DNA from: a virus
Direction: 5' to 3' (one strand)
DNA length: 28,817 bases
Virus record (IMG/VR): IMGVR_UViG_3300001282_000049
Span: 1 to 28,817 of that record
Below are positions 6,001 to 27,434 of this stretch, piece by piece; position 1 is the stretch's first letter, and every line of letters begins with the position of its first letter. The translations under genes were made by a program, and so were the position numbers. The notes beneath the pieces were generated by a model, which was not told the DNA's origin, searched no databases, and saw only the letters and a program-made list of their open reading frames with translations.

Positions 6001-8010
6001 AGAGATCATCCTAAAATTATAGAGTTTCTTACTAAGAAACTTAAGAGCTCTGAATTTAAAGAGTTTGCTAATGCGGCTTATGGAGATGAAATAGAGAATG
6101 CATTAGCTGGTTTCCAGGATGCAGTTACTAATTATGTATTTCAAAAAGCACTTGTAAATGTTAATCTTGTAGATGGTTACTATAAAGGTATTACATCTAG
6201 AGATTCTATAAAGACAAAGAAAGTAGGAGAAATTGTTAGTTTCCCAGCTGCAGTTATTGTTGAAAATGGTGTTCCTGTTATGTACTATAACATGGATATT
6301 ATTAATAGACAATATGAAAAAGCTTGGTCAAGAACATTCCCTACCTTAAGATCTTACCAAACTTATGTATTTGAGAAAGCATATCAAAAACACATAAACA
6401 GTTTTGATGAATATGCTGAGTCTCAAGACTTTAAAGAAAGAAAAACAAAGCTTAAAGAAACAGTAAAAAGAAGAGCAAACGAAATTCAGAAAGAAAAGCT
6501 TTCTGATAAGAGATTATTACCTCTTACAGATGTTGCTAGATTTAAGCAGTTGTCAGGAAAAGGTAGAGAGCTTGAAACTTATTTCCCTACAGATTATATT
6601 AAGAAGTCAGGATACCCACAATCAACAACATTTATTTTAAATGAAAACGGGTTATATGATCTTATTAATCAAGCTACAGGAGAAATCTTTAACTCTAATG
6701 TAGATCTTAAAGATGGTTTTGAGTACACTGTAAAAGTAGTAAAGAATATTGCTGAGAGTAAAAAAGATTACAATGACAGATTAAATAGGTTAACTTATGA
6801 TGGTTATTTAACCAGTGTTGCTCTTAAGAATACTTTCAATATCTATCATCTCTTCTATTCAAATGAGAGCTTTGCTCAAGAGTTTTATAATTTTAAAGCA
6901 AAATATCCAAAGCTTTCTGATAACTATATGATCTTCAGCATTTTAGAAAAGAGTAATTCTAAAACATCTGATCTTCAAAATCTTGTTATCAAAGGTGGAC
7001 AGCTTGATGGTAAGAGCCTTGATATTATTCATGATAATATTAGAGAGCTTGCTAACTACAATAAAATGTTAGTTGAGGCACCTAAGTTTGGTATTACAGA
7101 TAAGTTGGAGATAGCTAAGCTTGCTGACATGTTTAAGCGCTTTACTTACTTTGCTTATTTACAAAGTGGTATAGGTGGAAAAGGTGCTTTTGCTATCCAG
7201 AATCTTGGATTACAAGGATTATATTCTAATTTGATGACAAGTCCATCTAATCCAAATAATCCAGGATCAAGAAGTGTTCTGAAGAACTTTACTGAAACAA
7301 TGAATGAAGATCTTCTTAATACAATATATGAGAAGTTTAAAGACAATGTTTCTTCTGAAAGAAAGTTTAGACTTCAGAATTATGAAACAAGAGTAATTAC
7401 AAGACCTGCATCAGAAGATAAGTTTAATGCTTATACAGAAGGTGTGCTTTTATATGATGGATCTAACTTTGACAATTCTGGTTTAGCTGAAAATTACTTC
7501 CTTAATGCGATTGATAATTACAGATTAAGTGGAGGAGATCCTTCTAACTTAGTATTTGTAATCAATACTGCAGTAAAAAAGAAGACAGGTAAACAAGATT
7601 ATCTAAAGAGTATCCTTAAAGATACTGGGGCTACTCTAATAGCTATTCCTGTAAGAGAAGACTTTAATGAAAAGACTCACTTTAAAGATGAAACCTTAGC
7701 TGATAACCAAGCTAGAATAGATGCGGTTCTCGAAGAACTTGCTAAAGAACGAGCTAGTGGTAAAGTATTAGTTATGAGTAACTTGGGTTATGGTCAAAAT
7801 ATGATTGGTTTAAGTGAAATAACAGGTAAATCTATACCAGGAACTGGTGGAGCTCAAGATACTTTTGTACATTTGTCTAAGGAACTTTACAAAAAATTTG
7901 GCTATCTTAATAACAACTTCAAAGAAAGACCTGAGTTTGATATAGAAGAAACTGATGATCAAACAGTTAGAGATTTCTTGTCGATTTGTTTAACATCTGG
8001 ATTACTATAA
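1..8010 (+). CDS. Giant crAss-like phage virion RNA polymerase, 5' end outside the window
   Basis: The frame is open from the first base to the TAA at 8008-8010, so 2669 residues are visible and the true start lies upstream; the GTG at 439 is internal to a conserved motif and is not a start. Visible residues about 20-210 look like a SLOG/YpsA-type Rossmannoid domain: GNAEGAD (30-36), DGGTGYAVQMA (140-150), KPVYVFHQ and AGVGSRQL (195-202). A double-psi-barrel RNA polymerase core follows: RIPVGE at about 1470, then GGDFDFDK with the catalytic-type DFDFD at 1509-1513 (nt 4525-4539). In the crAss-like phage phi14:2 the equivalent DFDID binds the catalytic metal in a single-chain virion RNA polymerase that enters the host with the DNA and transcribes early genes. 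The last ~150 residues (from SNFDNSG) form a separate alpha/beta domain of unknown role. The next gene starts 1 nt after the stop, implying co-transcription. The polymerase call is secure; the roles of the terminal domains are inferred. Confidence 0.9.
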   Translation, partial: KAVFEETLAQKQKELSSVTKDLSGYENYSGNAEGADKYWAQRGYEYGLGKQVDFTTDSYDQLDDELKEETEAAYKTAVSRLGRKELAKDTSAGKLVRRDYLQVKYSDAVFAVSDIILPGEKGKPVKGKRYENNTKKAIVDGGTGYAVQMAIDLGKPVYVFHQGTLADNTTKVGWYEWNGTEFEAMDTPALTQKYAGVGSRQLNDAGKKAIEDVYKLTIDITEPSTNSTSLKKQDLQNQIRILTYAIDNFGDTDNIFKNPFGVGVIGYHRLRSEFLSFEDRFEDELQDERDASGPAFGMGAADQAIEEFLPVEIGYLLRGLKSGKKNALGFDVPLNEKLVIYKFIRTIAGNNGVTDIYNRLVKASEEFTPFKELLVKIGDPMSPVGGIQKIWNAINYVGRVSEAPLKQLTINKITKTYNKEGDLIEVEPTFDIYFGESFGDFQQVQKFWETSFQSSTGRYIKLQDDVRIMNLANVFADFPTKQSALNNKRGFLEAIGIKFSAAKEIDEKLNEIRPDGNSIGRVDRLYDIAKAYQNEGLYPTSISDLIKDNTDLDPSFTNEYTNYNDLANLELSYSDRFSNFSKKTAEDTIQYTITKNNSIFETVNAINAGETFPTMVSQPQTRHFDTTRNPATRASVLINSLFNLNTGQKRKDRKGNPVKINIDNISGVSLLENSSEFIDGTALSKLDKPSKLVADIHSLLTTGIVENSRHADKPMSYATSASKIHGTGSNGMLYVDTAKFVSPQSGAESFANIMMRYVIAEHDRINILKNLPDNDPAVNTPLFDKAGREFVIFHGILTEEIKKKLYAIETDPYKGSSLLEYLGYTYNDGALVPVSNTDEQITLREEIKDDIKEYFRLKSASLENLYSETNIFDNNLFKSVRKESLRLNINSELLTNDNIKSAIVSSYFANKLINNIELGILVYGDPSQYTHPKFEYSKRIALFGSAGPQPRYDEGFINYVNSDQFGGKKYGKTRGVDKPLSSILNTAVISDDVVNSPFKEKFVERAKIEIGKKFALRRDSIWVNASKEEKEEIVAKQAELQYSAYDGMKTNDSQALITFDTYRFIVFALKDWTQQQEDMYQDIIAGKPINRAEVDQVFPVMKLQYAGPLMTNSLPLMAGHKYSLFPLIPSVIKGTKLEQVHNMMIDQNIDYVVPVSGSKISSITKNGKPDQLYVNGVINTDTEFTNNPIFIGYLKKQMNVEPYFKGKSRFATQLRKLGTLGLYDGGVPSDFMPDTQDSSAKRLAWDALSESEKETYSNYRINKEYEESLDRLMEFIQDDLLNEIDWKIIDGVPQGSMENLLKLIEREFIRRGKPMDSLDFLQVDKNGKLVRDLSILSDSGNVERMLIALAEKRLIRQKLKGEGLIQVANSMFEKADYVRFKKPTEEQLKNYGADDLLYYDFTINPNGTYTNTSAAQVKVALQGDFKKLLQHKHNDGKPIKTLDRLNAMLKNEKWLNTGDNRKMITIISARIPVGERNFVEFFEVAQFLPEEAGPIMVVPKELVAKNGGDFDFDKQMSLLPTIERVGDNIKYLQSEVTEAQAQGYYNAIKEKNKDFDRSFVDFYTKLNIGAASNSVLQNLRSIFERPENFIYLTNSSSNYIFDDIVKKYKEEGLESGSVTNYQVDARGNKTKFYTADLKEKASISPTTAFEPEFDLETHSNNNVGKDVVGIVASANGYAPVANRVGLYMNPTRGTGTYEEYIKAASKEPRARSSYDKEVYKTFRLQRLFLDHNSLIGDANGKLSEKGTYKMISLSNLNDVNNNNPNSEVGSQTLNGGLDVAKDPWLFYININKEAAPVLMFLKQAGVDIENAIALINQPIIKEYLRLLKAVKSPVAAIQGIEPSNPNYYRLKAREIILNDPKYGFNQSLDVVAGPGSPSRIYELLLNYTEGYSSADFTLDSLNASKSLEFGDAKVKAILAHYIELEETSKFYSKLIRNTSMDTSTESSLISAINKDLMFGDLYSDNAFPKEKLDMIASESQISSFFNRKLIVGLYKDLFEFRDHPKIIEFLTKKLKSSEFKEFANAAYGDEIENALAGFQDAVTNYVFQKALVNVNLVDGYYKGITSRDSIKTKKVGEIVSFPAAVIVENGVPVMYYNMDIINRQYEKAWSRTFPTLRSYQTYVFEKAYQKHINSFDEYAESQDFKERKTKLKETVKRRANEIQKEKLSDKRLLPLTDVARFKQLSGKGRELETYFPTDYIKKSGYPQSTTFILNENGLYDLINQATGEIFNSNVDLKDGFEYTVKVVKNIAESKKDYNDRLNRLTYDGYLTSVALKNTFNIYHLFYSNESFAQEFYNFKAKYPKLSDNYMIFSILEKSNSKTSDLQNLVIKGGQLDGKSLDIIHDNIRELANYNKMLVEAPKFGITDKLEIAKLADMFKRFTYFAYLQSGIGGKGAFAIQNLGLQGLYSNLMTSPSNPNNPGSRSVLKNFTETMNEDLLNTIYEKFKDNVSSERKFRLQNYETRVITRPASEDKFNAYTEGVLLYDGSNFDNSGLAENYFLNAIDNYRLSGGDPSNLVFVINTAVKKKTGKQDYLKSILKDTGATLIAIPVREDFNEKTHFKDETLADNQARIDAVLEELAKERASGKVLVMSNLGYGQNMIGLSEITGKSIPGTGGAQDTFVHLSKELYKKFGYLNNNFKERPEFDIEETDDQTVRDFLSICLTSGLL

Positions 8011-21582: not shown

Positions 21583-22089
21583 TTATTTATTTAAGTATTC
21601 AGTCATTTTTGTTATTAACAAAGTATTGGTTTTTAATTTACCTAAAAGTAAGTTGCATGTTTTACATAATATACCTCTATAAATTCCAGTAGTATGATCA
21701 TGATCAACTACTAAAAAATCTTTTAAATCTTCTTGAGATTTTTCACAAATCATGCATTTGTTATTACATTTAAGTAGTTCTTCCTCATACTTTTCATAAG
21801 TAAAGAGAGTATTATCTGACAATTTTATGTTTTGTTTTTGCCAATAATACTCTCTTACATGCTTACGATTTTTAGATTGCCATTTTTTTGTAGAATTAAT
21901 TACTCTAGCTGGATTTTTATCATATCTTTCTTTATTTCTGATTTTAGTTCTTGGTAGTTTTTTTCTTGCTATTTCGCAAGTTTTACAATAAGCAAGTCTT
22001 CCATCAGGTCTATTAACAGATCTATAATAATCCTCTAAAGGTTTTATTTCTTTACAACCTGTACATTTTTTAGTTAAAATATTTGTCAT
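21583..22089 (-). CDS. HNH endonuclease, recombination endonuclease VII-like (free-standing homing type)
   Basis: 168 residues. The N-terminal zinc-binding half has CTGC (C9, C12) and CKTC (C35, C38) around KEIKPLEDYYRS, a beginning typical of Endonuclease_7 phage proteins. The C-terminal nuclease has CMIC (C113, C116), then VVDHDHTTGIYRGILCKTCN, the His-rich metal-finger of Endo VII/HNH enzymes. The protein is a nicking or double-strand DNase; in phages such stand-alone genes usually act as mobile homing endonucleases. Its insertion between the AAA+ gene and the 160-residue gene, lack of any role in the pathway around it and a TAnnTTTG box 19 nt before its ATG all support a selfish element with its own promoter. 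A role in Holliday-junction resolution, as for T4 gp49, is a possible alternative. Confidence 0.86.
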   Translation of the reverse strand: MTNILTKKCTGCKEIKPLEDYYRSVNRPDGRLAYCKTCEIARKKLPRTKIRNKERYDKNPARVINSTKKWQSKNRKHVREYYWQKQNIKLSDNTLFTYEKYEEELLKCNNKCMICEKSQEDLKDFLVVDHDHTTGIYRGILCKTCNLLLGKLKTNTLLITKMTEYLNK

Positions 22090-22146: not shown

Positions 22147-22904
22147 CTACTTCATTGCCATTTTAAGAACATCAGGATTAGTTAAGAGAGTTTGGAACTT
22201 CTGTTTGTTACCATTAAGAACATCTCTTACAAGAATAAACTTCAGATCATTAGACAAAGTCTCTTCATCTGTAGAAAGTTTGATAAGTCTATCTGTTACT
22301 TTGCTAGTTACAGAATTATTTTCTGCATAATTAAGGGTAAAGTTGATCAATCTGCGGGTTAGAATAGTAGCAATATCTGCGCGATAATTATCACCTCTAC
22401 CTACACAGTTTCTCAATTCACCAATGATATAAGACTCATTGTCATGCAAAAGAATATCCTTTGGAGTTACCAATTTGTCAAGCTTATTATTAATAAACAT
22501 GCTAAACATAGTTGCAAACTCAGGTCCTACTGAACCTTCACCAATCATTTGAATCAGAGGAAGTTGTGCATCAAAATCCTGAATAGAACTAATAGAGTTA
22601 AAGAAAGTCATGATACTTCTTGGATTAGTATCATCCTTTACAAGCTCTGGGTGCAACATCAAGAAATTAATACAGCGACCATCTACATCTTGTTTCTCTG
22701 CCCACTTAGCCCACACTTCTACATCAAACTTAAAGTTCACTGTAATAAAGCGAGTTTTCTGAGCACCATCCAAACTAGTTACATTATAGTTGCCATCATC
22801 AGGATTAGTAGTCAATACAATGTGCCAGTTCTTTGGAAGACACCAAGAATAATAAGTTTGTGTCTCAATTAAAGTCATTGTTGCTTGCATGAATCTAGCC
22901 AATT
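22147..22904 (-). CDS. MoxR-like AAA+ ATPase, exon 2 (C-terminal part)
   Basis: This frame continues the ATPase begun at 24411 after a group I intron. It starts in the text ARFMQATMTLIE, which in MoxR-type AAA+ proteins directly follows Walker B and the TR/NR pair, and includes the sensor-1 region LTTNPDDGNYNVTS and the arginine-finger-like AQKTRF. The helical C-terminal domain follows (CINFLMLHPELV to DVLKMAMK). It has no plausible start of its own: the first ATG is internal to the conserved block and the frame lacks the P-loop. With exon 1 the protein is about 393 residues, a normal size. The exact first base is uncertain: 22904 gives an intron ending in G and an in-frame join with 23988, while 22918 is the alternative if exon 1 ends at 23984. 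Confidence 0.86.
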
Positions 22905-23165
22905 CATGTTTGTTATCTCTAAGGTTCTTTATCCTCAGATTCTATACTTTCTTTTGTTATAGGTATAGTTCAGACTATATCATCTATGATTTAAAGATAT
23001 TGGAATATCAAATCATAGTTCTGCGCTCTTGGATATTTTATCTTCAGCTCCACCTGGTAAGATTACTTTATCTAGTCGTTGCTCCTTCAACCTATTTCTA
23101 GGAAGCTTGGATCAGAGTTAACTACTTCTAGTCTTTCTCTGAGTTCACAGAATTTAATGCGGACA

Positions 23166-23921
23166 CTATTTATATTTCCATTTAAATCCACCAGCTGTTA
23201 AATTATTTTTTATAGCTCTGGTGATATTTTTGATATTAAGAGTTTTTTGTGCTTCAGTGATAGATTCCCACTCTTTTATAGGAGCGTTACTTAAATCTAT
23301 TTGTAACACCGGTCTTAATTTGTATTTTTTGTTAAGCTTATTAAGCTTGTCAACTTTAAAATAAGACCATCTATAATTATAAGCTGTATAGTTATCACCC
23401 CTCGCTGCAGAACATATAACAGAGTAATTATTTTTATCTCCAAAATATTCTGCTGCTTTAGTAGCATTTTCAAAAGATTTTATATACATACCTTCAAGAG
23501 AATACATATAAGTCTCTTTTTGATTGTAAATTTTCCTACCTTTTTTAAAGCTATTCTTTGCACCTATACTTAATCTTTCTTTATAGATTTTACTTCTCTT
23601 AATCTCAACAGGATCTAATATGTGGTTAATTCTGTAAGGTCTTTTTAATAGCTCTATATGATATTTTTCTCTTTCTAAAAGAAAGTTTTCATCACATATT
23701 TCTACTACATCATATGTCATATTATCTATTCCATACTTATCAAACAATCTTTGCATTGTTTGATTATGATGTTTATTCGATAATAAATCAACTAGATGAC
23801 CCTTTAATCTTTTACCTATACATTTAGAACTACCTATATACTTGTAGTCGTTAAACTGTATACAGTAAATACCACAGATTTTTAACCCTGTTTCTTCTTT
23901 TAATTTGGAAATGTGTTTCAT
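23166..23921 (-). CDS. GIY-YIG intron-encoded homing endonuclease
   Basis: 251 residues from the ATG at 23921, which gives MKHISKLKEETG; a longer upstream reading would run into two strong hairpins and has no ATG. The nuclease domain is clear: CGIYCIQFNDYKYIGSS holds both GIY and YIG, followed by GKRLKGH with the conserved Arg and by an ERE-type Glu (LLEREKYHIELL). The C-terminus has two NUMOD1/IENR1-like DNA-binding modules: MYSLEGMYIKSFENATKAAEY, and QIDLSNAPIKEW with ITEAQKTLN, each ending in a FKWKYK- or YRWSYF-type strand. Such enzymes cut intronless alleles of the host gene so that the intron is copied in. Stop TAG lies two bases before the intron's internal guide GUCCGC, so the gene appears to occupy the P1 loop, an uncommon location. 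Confidence 0.93.
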   Translation of the reverse strand: MKHISKLKEETGLKICGIYCIQFNDYKYIGSSKCIGKRLKGHLVDLLSNKHHNQTMQRLFDKYGIDNMTYDVVEICDENFLLEREKYHIELLKRPYRINHILDPVEIKRSKIYKERLSIGAKNSFKKGRKIYNQKETYMYSLEGMYIKSFENATKAAEYFGDKNNYSVICSAARGDNYTAYNYRWSYFKVDKLNKLNKKYKLRPVLQIDLSNAPIKEWESITEAQKTLNIKNITRAIKNNLTAGGFKWKYK

Positions 23922-23977
23922 ATTATATCTTTTTACAAAGATATAATTTTTTAGCAAAGCAAGCAAGTTTGCTAAAA
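23922..23977 (-). promoter_or_regulatory. Two tandem hairpins and a TATCTTTG box in front of the GIY-YIG gene
   Basis: Directly before the GIY-YIG ATG are two perfect inverted repeats: TTTTAGCAAA with TTTGCTAAAA (23949-23977, 9-nt loop) and ATTATATCTTT with AAAGATATAAT (23922-23947, 4-nt loop). The second abuts the ATG and contains TATCTTTG (23943-23936), a match to the Bacteroidetes -7 box TAnnTTTG. Hairpins that hide the start of intron endonucleases on long read-through RNA, but not on a short internal transcript, are known from T4; a similar logic is plausible here. Confidence 0.5.
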
Positions 23978-23983
23978 TTGTTT

Positions 23984-24411
23984 ATCCGCTTGGTATAATC
24001 ATCAAGAATTAGGATACCACCTTCTTTCTTATTATTGATCCACTCTGGAGCTGCATAACCCATGCGCTTATTACCGGTAGGTTTATACTGACTAGCTACA
24101 TATTGTGGAAGCAAACTCTCTGGAACCCACTTAACTGTTGTTTCTTTTACTACTTCAAACTCCTTAACTGGAAAACCTACCAAATCTGATAGATCTTCTA
24201 GCTCAGCCAAATTCAATCTTACAAGATCCATGTTAAGCTCTTTAGCAAGTTGTAGGATAGAACTTGTCTTACCAACACCTGCTGGACCCTCAACATTTAC
24301 AGTTACAGGAGTAGTTCCCTTCTCTTGAAGGATCTGATTATTTGCAATAATATGACGCATGAACCCTTTAAGTTCATCTGCATTAAGACTGATTTGATTA
24401 TTCTTTGCCAT
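23984..24411 (-). CDS. MoxR-like AAA+ ATPase, exon 1 (N-terminal part)
   Basis: Starts at ATG 24411, two bases after the stop of the VWA gene. The encoded part has Walker A GPAGVGKT (residues 42-49), the family's NLAELEDLSDLVGFPVKE, then GGILILDDYTK with Walker B (DD 137-138). Without the intron the frame would run into intron sequence and stop after 162 residues, losing sensor 1 and the arginine finger. MoxR-family AAA+ proteins work with VWA-domain partners to remodel or activate other proteins; here the VWA gene is the adjacent upstream gene. Exon 1 ends at 23984 by the P1 pairing rule, or at 23988 if the family-length protein join (TK then QLARFMQ) is right. Confidence 0.88.
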
Positions 24412-24413
24412 GT

Positions 24414-25413
24414 TTAGTTAAGTTGAATTTTTACACCTTTTAAATCTTCATTCATTGTTCCATTGGTGGAAATTGCCCATAATACCGGACCTCTACACTT
24501 CTCTGGAGCTGGAGCTTCGCCATCAGTAAAATATACTAGACAGCTATAATCTTTATGATGCTCATTGTAATAATCACATACTGGTTCAAAGCTCGTGCCC
24601 CCTCTACCATGTATGTGCATATCTTCGTTGATATTGAATTTACCTATGTGACTAATAGCTGTGTCACATTGTATCACCATAATATCTGTACCTGTTTTGT
24701 GTATGTGATAAAGCTCATTCATAAACTCCTTAAGCTCTGTTGTAGATACTGATCCAGAGGTATCTATACCTACTAGAATCCTTCTCTTAGGCTTAACCTT
24801 GAGACCTGGGGAGTCATCAAATCTATGATTCTCTTTTCTCCTAGTTCTTTTTACATATACTTGGGTAGAACCTCCTACAAATCTGCGTAAGAATCCTCTC
24901 CAATCAAATTTAGCTTCCTCTACTTCATTAAGTTTCTTAAGAATCTCAGCAAACTCTCCAGGTACAGTACCTCTAGATTTCTCTACTTGTTCTGCTACTT
25001 CTTTAAGAATGTGCCCTGTTTGTTGTTCAATCAACTTCTTAGTTGCTTCAGATAGCTTATCAAAGTCTTCCCAAGTACCATGATCAGGTAGATTTACTTT
25101 TACTTTTACATTACCATCCTTACCTTTAGATACTTCTATAGTCATTTGACCATCCCCCATAGCATCCATCATATCATCTAAATTAGGACAAGTACCTGGA
25201 TTATTAGCAGCTTGTTGAAGCTTTTCATAATAATAGTTAGTACCCTGCTTAGATAAAAGATTTAGCTCTGGGAATAGATCTAGTGTCATACCACCTTCTG
25301 GTAGCATATCTTTATCAATATATTGATTGATTTCTATGTCCATAGCCCAGTTAGCAATCATCTTATTTGTAAGGTGGTTATAACTAGTCAAATGAGAGAA
25401 ACCAATATGCAAT
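24414..25413 (-). CDS. DUF2201-type metallopeptidase/VWA protein, exon 2
   Basis: Continues from exon 1 at A25413, completing the codon CT|A so that HEL-LHIGFSHL is restored. Numbered in the spliced 405-residue protein: the zinc motif HELLH is 71-75; NKMIANWAMDIEINQYI, the conserved helix after it, follows at about 89-105; a charged linker runs to about 280; then comes a VWA-like domain with a complete MIDAS: DTSGS (290-294), GGTSF (344-348) and FTDGE (D370). This is the DUF2201_N plus DUF2201 architecture, a putative metallopeptidase fused to a VWA domain, often encoded next to a MoxR AAA+ ATPase as it is here. The target of this pair in phages is unknown. The TTG at 25412 could mimic a start but lies inside the zinc motif. 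Confidence 0.9.
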
Positions 25414-25716
25414 CATTTGTGTTAACTTACATTCTCATGTAAGATCAGACTATACCTTTACCCTTTGTCAAGGGTAGTTTATTGTAGTCGTTGAACCTCT
25501 TTCTTGGATTGTAACTCATAAGATAAGTATCAAATTTTTATTCACATTACCAAGAAATTTGGCTGCGGATTGTCCAATTCTAAACCTTTTTACTGTACTG
25601 CTTTGATTACAAGCACCATATAAATATTACTATTTGTACTTAGTAGTTTAGACTCTAAGGAGTTTCCCGCAATTTAAAACTTTTTACATGCACATTACTG
25701 TACAAGGAGCCCCTTG
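25414..25716 (-). ncRNA. Group I self-splicing intron (303 nt, no ORF) inside the HELLH motif
   Basis: No gene lies in this 303-nt stretch; on the minus strand it is a complete group I intron. P1: exon GAGCU pairs with intron GGCUC (25711-25707), with U25717 at the splice site in a U-G pair. P2: UGUAC with GUGCA. Core: AAUUGCGGGAAAC (25674-25662), AAUCCGCAGCC (25571-25561), CAACGACUACA and UAUAGUC, so P7 is GACUA (25489-25485) with UAGUC (25452-25448). P8 is UACCC with GGGUA, and P9 is CUUACAU-GAGA-AUGUAAG (25443-25426) with a GNRA loop. The intron ends in G at 25414. Removing 25716-25414 joins 218 and 1000 nt into a 1218-nt frame and rebuilds HELLHIGFSH. RNA folding and protein logic agree on the same bases. 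Confidence 0.95.
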
Positions 25717-25934
25717 AGCTCGTGCTTCAATAATCCTTGCTGATGTTTCTCACCAAGCTTTGTCCAGAAGTCTTCACTAATAGTCAACTGATAGTTGATT
25801 CCATTAAGACTCACTCCTGCGGTAGGGACTCTATTATCCCATACCTTGTTAAGCATGATAAGAAACATACCATAGAAAGGCTCTTTGAACATTAAGTTCT
25901 TAGATGCTTTCGCTAGTGATTCCTGTTTTGTCAT
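25717..25934 (-). CDS. DUF2201-type metallopeptidase/VWA protein, exon 1
   Basis: ATG at 25934, inside the last 35 nt of the upstream 143-residue gene. Encodes 72 residues plus two bases of codon 73. The start MTKQESLAKASKNLMFKEPFYG, the segment WDNRVPTAGVSLNGINYQL and the LLKHEL ending are typical of the N-terminal putative metallopeptidase domain of DUF2201 proteins, whose zinc motif is HExxH. The frame here breaks exactly within HE-L, where the group I intron begins at 25716; unspliced RNA would add a few residues and stop, giving a 79-residue fragment without the second zinc His. It should be read with the exon at 25413-24414. Confidence 0.9.
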
Positions 25935-26678: not shown

Positions 26679-27434
26679 TCATAATTTTAAATTATTAATA
26701 ATAGATTGTATGTGTTGAATAAACTCATCATGTGAGTACTTATTTTTCATCATATTACATTTTCCACAACAAGTGACACAATTATCACTTTCATAACCAA
26801 GAAAGTTATCTTTTCTATCAATACCATTATAATAAATAGACTTATTACCCTTTTGGATTTTATTTGCTGGTAAAACTCCACAGTAATAACAAGAAGAAAA
26901 TAAATAACTTTCAAAAACATCATTAGTAAGTTCAAAACTATAACCTCTTAATGTAGCATTCTTTTTATAAGATTGAAACAATGAGTTAATTAAAGCTTTT
27001 TTGTTTGAGTCAGTGAAAATTTCTCTTTTTTTCTTAAAACTACATTTTGTACAACAGTCTTTTTTTCTGTCAACTCTTGTACTAAATACTTCTCCACAAG
27101 TGCATTGTACTTTAAAATATCTATGATTGCTAGTTGTTTTTTCGGCATCTTCTTCAAGATATCTTAAGTTATTACCTATAGCATCACCTTTTTTATAACT
27201 TACTTTGTGTAATGGAGCAATAGATATTTTACAAGACTTATTTCCACAAGAAGTAATATACCCTGCTTTAATAGAAGCTAATTGTTTTACATGTTCAGTA
27301 TTACAAGAAGTGCACAAGACTTTTATATATCTCATACCTTTTCCTTTGTATCCCGCTTCATCTAAGTATTTAAGTTTTGTTACAATGTCAAACTTATTAC
27401 TGATTAACTCTCCTGGTTTTAGTGTGTATTTCAT
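26679..27434 (-). CDS. HNH homing endonuclease with two N-terminal zinc-ribbon-like modules
   Basis: 251 residues. The N-terminal half holds two similar Cys-rich segments (VLCTSCNTEH ending SCGNKSC, and VQCTCGEVF ending DCCTKC), each preceded by a G-x-x-I/L-x-N stretch; these are DNA-binding ribbons common in phage homing endonucleases. The C-terminal nuclease has CYYCG, NGIDRKDN and DNCVTCCGKCNMMKN, the full HNH/zinc pattern of free-standing HNH enzymes. It interrupts an otherwise compact operon, is AT-richer than its neighbours by eye, and has a TATATTTG box upstream. Likely a selfish gene; it is one of three such endonucleases in 6 kb and could also be the enzyme that mobilises the ORF-less intron nearby, which is speculation. 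Confidence 0.9.
   Translation of the reverse strand: MKYTLKPGELISNKFDIVTKLKYLDEAGYKGKGMRYIKVLCTSCNTEHVKQLASIKAGYITSCGNKSCKISIAPLHKVSYKKGDAIGNNLRYLEEDAEKTTSNHRYFKVQCTCGEVFSTRVDRKKDCCTKCSFKKKREIFTDSNKKALINSLFQSYKKNATLRGYSFELTNDVFESYLFSSCYYCGVLPANKIQKGNKSIYYNGIDRKDNFLGYESDNCVTCCGKCNMMKNKYSHDEFIQHIQSIINNLKL

Follow-up and report, generated by a model that had tools for sequence, protein, structure and literature searches.

An ORF-less group I intron in the HExxH codons of a viral metallopeptidase-VWA gene, probably descended from a LAGLIDADG homing intron

ORF-less deletion derivatives reportedly exist among the introns in the lysin gene of S. thermophilus phages. The intron described here resembles these in being a short intron that occurs beside longer versions at one site, and differs from them in residing in another gene and in that part of the presumably lost ORF is still readable in its P6 loop. 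Also close are the phage introns of the Rfam family RF00028, such as those in the Bastillevirinae genes for DNA polymerase, terminase, ribonucleotide reductase and thymidylate synthase (PMC11878797, in the portion of the text accessible to us), with which our intron shares (i) the P-Q-R-S core, the terminal G and the U.G pair at the 5' splice site; and (ii) the occurrence of ORF-less members alongside a majority that carry an endonuclease ORF in a peripheral loop. Unlike these, its host gene, which encodes a DUF2201 metallopeptidase-VWA protein, is outside the gene families listed in the accessible portion of that study. The crAss-like phages, for which a high intron density has been described (PMC7886860, in the sections available), offer a further likeness, namely that conserved genes of large phages harbor group I introns; the available sections of that study's main text make no mention of MoxR, von Willebrand or metallopeptidase. 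Our searches of the open-access literature turned up no earlier description of a group I intron in a gene of this type. We regard the intron as ordinary in kind; what is unusual is the gene that hosts it and how complete the natural series around it is.

The DNA analyzed, IMGVR_UViG_3300001282_000049, is a stretch of 28,817 nt (hereafter, the window), on the minus strand of which lie the interrupted gene and both introns discussed below. A 116–140-nt stretch of the 5' core of its ORF-less intron is 73–76% identical to DNA from Bacillus, Enterococcus and crAss-like phages (L083–L086) that is intronic or intron-like. The intron of cr108_1 and the moxR intron of another relative (L087) contain an insert between P7 and P3, which we take to be P7.1/P7.2, whereas the window intron has none. 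Membership of the window in the Crassvirales is not established: its 2523-residue ORF has weak matches (19.8–26% identity over 17–27% of the query, among the 12 of 39 matches listed) to uncultured phages, including two that are classified under Crassvirales (cr108_1 and cr271_1), and also to Flavobacterium phages; its 1894-residue ORF has no phage match; and its DNA polymerase matches at <60% in all 950 records found, which come from many phages.

Our preferred reading, to which we assign a probability of roughly 0.88, is that the window carries an ORF-less, predicted splicing-competent group I intron in HELLH that is descended from a LAGLIDADG homing intron. Empty alleles, ORF-bearing introns and stripped introns, one of the last with a readable ORF stump, form a natural series at this one site, in close as well as distant phages, and the gain-and-decay cycle of homing introns becomes testable at one defined locus. 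A practical consequence is that, in such phages, plain ORF calling breaks up both the enzyme, at HExxH, and the ATPase that partners it, as it did in the window.

The interrupted gene and the ends of the intron

A preliminary description of this DNA, drawn from its letters, had placed an intron exactly inside the HExxH motif of a metallopeptidase gene and had held its ends, 25717/25414, to be definable to the base. Comparison with relatives bears out both claims. Among viral contigs, 278 relatives were found, and in 77 of the 80 that were compared the gene is uninterrupted and reads an unbroken HExxH at the intron point; intronless relatives that lack a continuous HELLH there, which had been named as evidence against the intron, were not what we found. 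The remaining three (L005–L007) are interrupted, and carry the 303 nt of the window letter for letter. Alignment places an empty site exactly at 25717|25413 in seven relatives (L001–L004 and L008–L010). Because these empty sites join exactly at that point, the intron ends are confirmed by comparison, beyond the RNA rules, and those of the 303-nt group I intron at window 25414–25716 (minus strand) are correct to the base.

The 5' exon of the vwa/metallopeptidase gene (25717–25934, minus strand), as supported by the ORF list, the spliced translation and the empty-site alignment, encodes residues 1–72 and two bases of codon 73, while the 3' exon (24414–25413, minus strand) encodes the second His of HExxH and the VWA domain. 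The intron between them, identified by its Rfam match, by the empty site and by its 100% identity in L005, L006 and L007, has no endonuclease ORF. Joining 25934–25717 to 25413–24414 yields a 405-residue ORF that contains HELLHIGFSH, so that the in-frame product claimed earlier was reproduced by spliced translation, and the intron point falls in the codon of the first Leu after HE in HELLH. The ligands of HExxH, and the motifs called Walker A, Walker B and MIDAS below, carry the names that we presume to apply to them.

In Pfam, the spliced product matches DUF2201_N (putative metallopeptidase) and DUF2201 (VWA-like) with E-values of about 2e-15 each, passing the respective gathering scores (57.6 versus 23.2 bits, and 57.2 versus 26.4 bits). 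The metallopeptidase part is far weaker in the unspliced pieces, which score 17.3 and 25.1 bits against 57.6 bits for the spliced protein. The latter is open throughout and is 96% identical to an uninterrupted homolog (L001). Residues 3–392 of the spliced protein also match phrog_1314, a family labeled 'HNH endonuclease', and this label recurs in phage records; it is probably a misannotation.

Predicted fold of the intron RNA

A search with the Rfam covariance model, which the preliminary description had suggested as a check, returned a match to RF00028 at 25426–25742 (80.4 bits; gathering threshold, 50; E 3.5e-19). The structural elements that had been described earlier were recovered too. 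P1 (25707–25721, minus strand), in which the exon GAGCU and the intron C (25721–25716) pair with GGGCUC (25712–25707), has the U.G pair at the junction (25717), and together with the terminal G25414 it agrees with the empty sites and with the 13 distinct introns that we found at this site (see below). The P-Q-R-S core, with P4, P7, P8 and a GAGA-capped P9, is present in the Rfam alignment, in the folding results and in the 13-intron alignment. The Rfam alignment draws P1 otherwise, beginning at 25742, so that our P1 relies on the empty site together with the alignment of the 13 sequences. The U.G at the P1 splice site and the terminal G occur in all 13 introns, each of which is also preceded by GAGCT, a sequence present in only 32 of the 77 uninterrupted genes; this is as expected because the guide sequence would require such an exon. 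Single-strand folding was only moderately better than that of shuffled sequences (z -2.68; three of 100 shuffles were as good).

Individual helices were assessed on the ORF-stripped cores of the 13 introns with 500 shuffles per helix, a comparison that related rows make generous. Cores without ORFs were aligned because a pairwise MAFFT alignment of the window intron with the complete intron of L087 put the 3' core in the wrong place. Compensatory changes support five of the predicted helices, all on the minus strand: P2 (25689–25704; 25704–25699 with 25694–25689), with 78 of 78 cells paired, both-side changes at three of six pairs and none of the 500 shuffles as good; P3 (25476–25681; 25681–25677 with 25480–25476), with 56 of 65 cells paired, both-side changes at three of five pairs and 0/500 shuffles; P6 (25500–25557; 25557–25550 with 25507–25500), with 100 of 104 cells paired, both-side changes at three of eight pairs and 1/500 shuffles, although its 3' strand overlaps ORF codons in relatives and its conservation could be partly at the protein level; P8 (25460–25475; 25475–25470 with 25465–25460), with 66 of 77 cells paired, both-side changes at three of six pairs and 0/500 shuffles; and P9 with its GAGA loop (25426–25443; 25443–25437 with 25432–25426), with 91 of 91 cells paired, both-side changes at four of seven pairs and 0/500 shuffles. 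The loop of P6 (25508–25549) is the place of a LAGLIDADG-type ORF in relatives.

Covariation did not support P4, which comprises the P and Q elements (25564–25671, minus strand; 25671–25666 with 25569–25564) and is drawn in the Rfam alignment (61 of 78 cells paired; 46/500 shuffles as good), nor did it support P5 (28 of 36 cells paired; 445/500 shuffles as good). P7, formed by the R and S elements (25448–25489, minus strand; 25489–25485 with 25452–25448), is paired in 65 of 65 cells and invariant, and hence can give no covariation signal. Similarly, P1 is paired in 78 of 78 cells among the 13 introns and no pair has changed on both sides, its variation being too low for covariation. A likely further helix, presumably P10, would pair intron bases 1–3 (CAA; 25714–25716, minus strand) with the exon UUG at 25412–25410; as in P10, 11 of the 13 introns have matching bases at intron position 1 and exon position +4, while the other two break the match (Fisher p 0.035, from related rows).

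Group I splicing requires guanosine and a folded core. On this basis, the GAGCU of the transcript would pair with the intron guide in P1, an external guanosine bound at P7 would cut at the P1 splice site, and joining at G25414, GAGCU to AUUG, would, as inferred from the class, restore the 405-residue protein.

Introns at the same site and the putative remnant of an ORF

Searches with patterns taken from the intron core, the 5' end and the 3' junction returned 6, 10 and 22 stretches, respectively, and an endonuclease-ORF query returned two contigs, both of which were already among the core-pattern matches. Same-site introns were extracted from 24 rows including the window, corresponding to 22 contigs besides the window, three of which are those of L005–L007; rows with a missing 3' part (L098) or a missing 5' part (L090, L104 and L113) were dropped. 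Introns at the same HExxH point are found on 19 viral contigs beyond L005–L007, and 13 distinct sequences can be told apart in all. Eleven of these are 1097–1112 nt long and carry an ORF of 273–280 residues, whereas two, the window intron (303 nt) and the intron of L111 (272 nt), are stripped. Both LAGLIDADG-type motifs are present in 11 of 11 intron ORFs, and the one ORF tested in Pfam, that of the L087 intron, matches LAGLIDADG_3. The ORF sits between the Q and R elements, i.e., in the P6 loop, and in nine of the 11 its closing codons (FNDYN) extend into the R element; the ORFs of L096 and L099 read that part of the core in another frame.

The ORF-bearing introns are poorly recognized by the Rfam model: RF00028 lists nothing at the HExxH site of L087, L103 and L110, and the introns on the contigs of L087, L094, L101 and L107 reach 26.5, 26.5, 38.5 and 40.3 bits, below the threshold of 50, with matches in their 3' part. 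Such low scores are expected because the ORF splits the core, and the predicted group I membership of these introns rests mainly on their alignment to the window intron. At the gathering threshold, a search of ten loci gave nothing in L085, L086 and L088. The stripped intron of L111 scores 71.6 bits when scanned alone, and was not listed when scanned with six other loci, which shared the default filter. At this second stripped HExxH-site locus (L111 547–2021), the core is 88.9% identical to that of L102, and the gene groups with those of L095 and L099.

In the window intron, the longest ATG-started sense-strand ORF has 24 codons; no intact homing endonuclease ORF is present, while 11 of the 13 same-site introns have one. 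However, an open frame of 22 codons (25472–25537, minus strand), KFDTYLMSYNPRKRFNDYNKLP, lies in the P6 loop, its last part overlapping the R element. The ORFs of the relatives end in F..YL..Y before the core, or similarly, and we compared the ten residues before the core with these ends, leaving out PRKRFNDYN, which the RNA core dictates. Scored against the C-termini of all 11 ORFs, these residues average 19.5 in BLOSUM62, a value reached by 25 of 20000 residue shuffles and one of 20000 nucleotide shuffles. When L096, L099, L103 and L114 are left out, the remaining seven C-termini give a mean of 18.0 (30/20000 residue and 6/20000 nucleotide shuffles), and the other two frames give about -15. 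The best scores, 31 and 26, are obtained with L096 and L099, compared at the residues just before the core; the introns of these two are among the three that group with that of the window. The stripped intron of L111 has no remnant-like stretch outside the core. We read the window intron as a likely deletion derivative of an ORF-bearing intron. Its ancestor would have been a homing intron with a LAGLIDADG-type ORF in the P6 loop, of which the 22-codon stump is left in the window. The sequences themselves establish the exact site, a fold preserved through compensatory changes, the relatives with an ORF, the remnant of that ORF and the family's movement among phages; splicing itself and the driving of the family's spread by the ancestral ORF are what we infer.

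Homing into a catalytic motif would provide a conserved target, and would make loss of the intron costly unless exact. Homing endonucleases often target the codons of functionally critical residues, according to the part available of PMC3984707, and a position inside HExxH is for this reason to be expected rather than surprising.

That the intron family has moved between phages is indicated by a comparison of intron and host protein identities, which were computed for 11 pairs; the full-length comparisons of the window itself are blurred by its missing ORF. Across 1097 nt of DNA, L097 and L099 have introns that share 95.4% identity, while their host proteins are only 57.2% identical, and similar contrasts are seen for L107/L101 (introns 89.1%, proteins 53.7%) and L111/L102 (87.8% versus 50.9%). 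Weaker contrasts are given by L111/L099 (74.4% versus 68.4%) and L087/L101 (71.3% versus 52.0%). Common descent hardly accounts for introns this alike, ORF included, in genes so far apart, and the straightforward interpretation is transfer at the site. We rest horizontal transfer on these pairs and not on a topology test because the group tested was chosen post hoc: on intron data, a single clade of L095, L099 and L111, picked after the gene tree was seen, has a p-AU of 1.66e-43, which may come mostly from the near-identity of the L096 and L099 introns, while a five-row group was not rejected (p 0.204).

In a tree built from 81 VWA proteins, 18 of them with the intron, its presence changes at least eight times, compared with 16–18 times in the five shuffles printed; since the two sets of rows had been fetched by different routes, this count shows patchiness only. 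Presence/absence polymorphism together with spread is observed for the family as a whole, and presence/absence only for the window's own clade. The window intron groups with those of L095, L096 and L099 (99/98 support), whose genes are also near that of the window on the gene tree, and the four carriers of the 303-nt intron (the window and L005–L007) form one tight clade. The window's copy may be a recent gain or may have been inherited, with repeated exact loss in near relatives; the gene tree fits both. The first exon base 3' of the site is A in the window and L005–L007 and T in the seven empty sites, encoding Leu either way, and this single base leans toward a gain with co-conversion in the window's clade.

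Neighboring insertions and alternative readings

A second group I intron, of 1084 nt, lies in the adjacent gene for a moxR-type AAA ATPase (22900–23983, minus strand; core, 22957–23209), with an empty site in L001, L002, L008 and L009. RF00028 scores 55.7 bits each for the moxR introns of the window (also scanned as L082) and L003 in a covariance genome search, yet cmscan lists neither. This intron contains an ORF (23166–23966, minus strand) with GIY-YIG and NUMOD1 domains, located after the 5' splice site and before the likely guide sequence. In L003 and L004, the moxR intron is present and the vwa intron is absent.

Compared with L003, L004, L005 and L006, the moxR exons of the window (23984–24411 and 22147–22899) show a one-base deletion in the 5' exon beside the intron, which would disrupt the reading frame after splicing. 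Because only one contig shows it, a sequencing error may be the cause; the copies in L003–L006 are intact.

Free-standing endonuclease VII- or HNH-like genes are found at 21583–22089 and 26679–27434. Both are missing at these places in L001 and L003, so that the window's lineage has acquired or retained four insertions within roughly 6 kb.

Together, these genes allow a reading that we consider unlikely, namely, that the ORF-less intron is still mobile in trans by collaborative homing, with a nearby endonuclease (the moxR GIY-YIG ORF or one of the two free-standing genes) acting for it. Such homing of ORF-less introns in trans has been described, in the portion available of PMC3984707, and provides a precedent. 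Moreover, all carriers of the 303-nt intron align through the 26679–27434 gene, which L001–L004, L009 and L010, with empty sites, skip. Since the four carriers are one tight clade, however, this amounts to one event and not to a correlation; we know of no cleavage site for the neighboring endonucleases.

The preliminary description had further proposed that splicing is a switch, controlled in infection, between an inactive 79-residue fragment and the full enzyme. Its premise stood: both the ORF list and the spliced translation agree that unspliced RNA would yield a truncated 79-residue product, the first in-frame stop, a TAA at 25695–25697 (minus strand), starting at intron position 20. A GTP-sensing 'molecular on-switch' has also been proposed for phage introns in general, with reference to translation-dependent splicing in T4 (PMC11878797, in the portion accessible). 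The switch itself was not borne out, and we consider it very unlikely. No intron is present at this point in 77 of the 80 relatives, the distribution on the gene tree is patchy, and the intron is an endonuclease-bearing one that has been stripped, as is usual in the history of mobile elements. Ribosomes need to be kept out of a ribozyme core and, as expected from this, an early in-frame stop is common to all 13 distinct same-site introns, starting at intron positions 5–35. We know of no role for the 79-residue fragment, and no result of this sequence analysis points to splicing control. As a caution, an intron in a catalytic motif of a phage gene need not mean a switch.

It is scarcely credible that the intron is dead and the gene broken in this phage, as the moxR deletion relative to four relatives might hint, given that its helices show compensatory changes, the spliced protein is open throughout and 96% identical to an uninterrupted homolog, and the intron is 100% identical in four contigs.

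Besides the derivative of a LAGLIDADG homing intron that we favor at HELLH, further inserts occupy moxR and vwa in the relatives. In L041 (2535–3754) and L058 (5052–6271), a 1.2-kb insert with a GIY-YIG-type ORF lies in what we take to be the Walker A P-loop of moxR; RF00028 scores 59.1 bits for the insert in L058 and lists none in L041. The P-loop ORF shares 33–39% identity with the other two moxR ORFs in the comparison. L058 has a further RF00028 match downstream of this insert (7327–7562; 81.4 bits), which is probably an intron at the RAD|A site of moxR.

A second insert in vwa, at the presumed MIDAS-like sequence GRGG|T, was observed in L103 (2685–3653), L110 (1409–2343), L113 (1141–2109) and L114 (2834–3802), and carries a LAGLIDADG-type ORF. 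No RF00028 match is listed for the inserts that L103 and L110 have at GRGG|T, the match in L110 lying at the contig end (1–288). We are less sure that these inserts are group I introns, an assignment suggested by ORF homology, position and a P2-like sequence. Their ORFs are 31–44% identical to those at the HExxH site.

Across the relatives, four conserved motifs of the adjacent moxR and vwa genes, each at or next to catalytic residues, are interrupted by such elements. Tentatively, moxR-vwa might be a homing hot spot, in which the P-loop, the segment after a DDY that we presume to be Walker B-like, HExxH and GRGG|T have each been colonized, the vwa sites by a shared LAGLIDADG lineage and the moxR sites by a GIY-YIG lineage. 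Introns could then have moved from one active-site codon to another within a gene, and stripped ones like that of the window may persist by borrowing the endonuclease of a neighbor.
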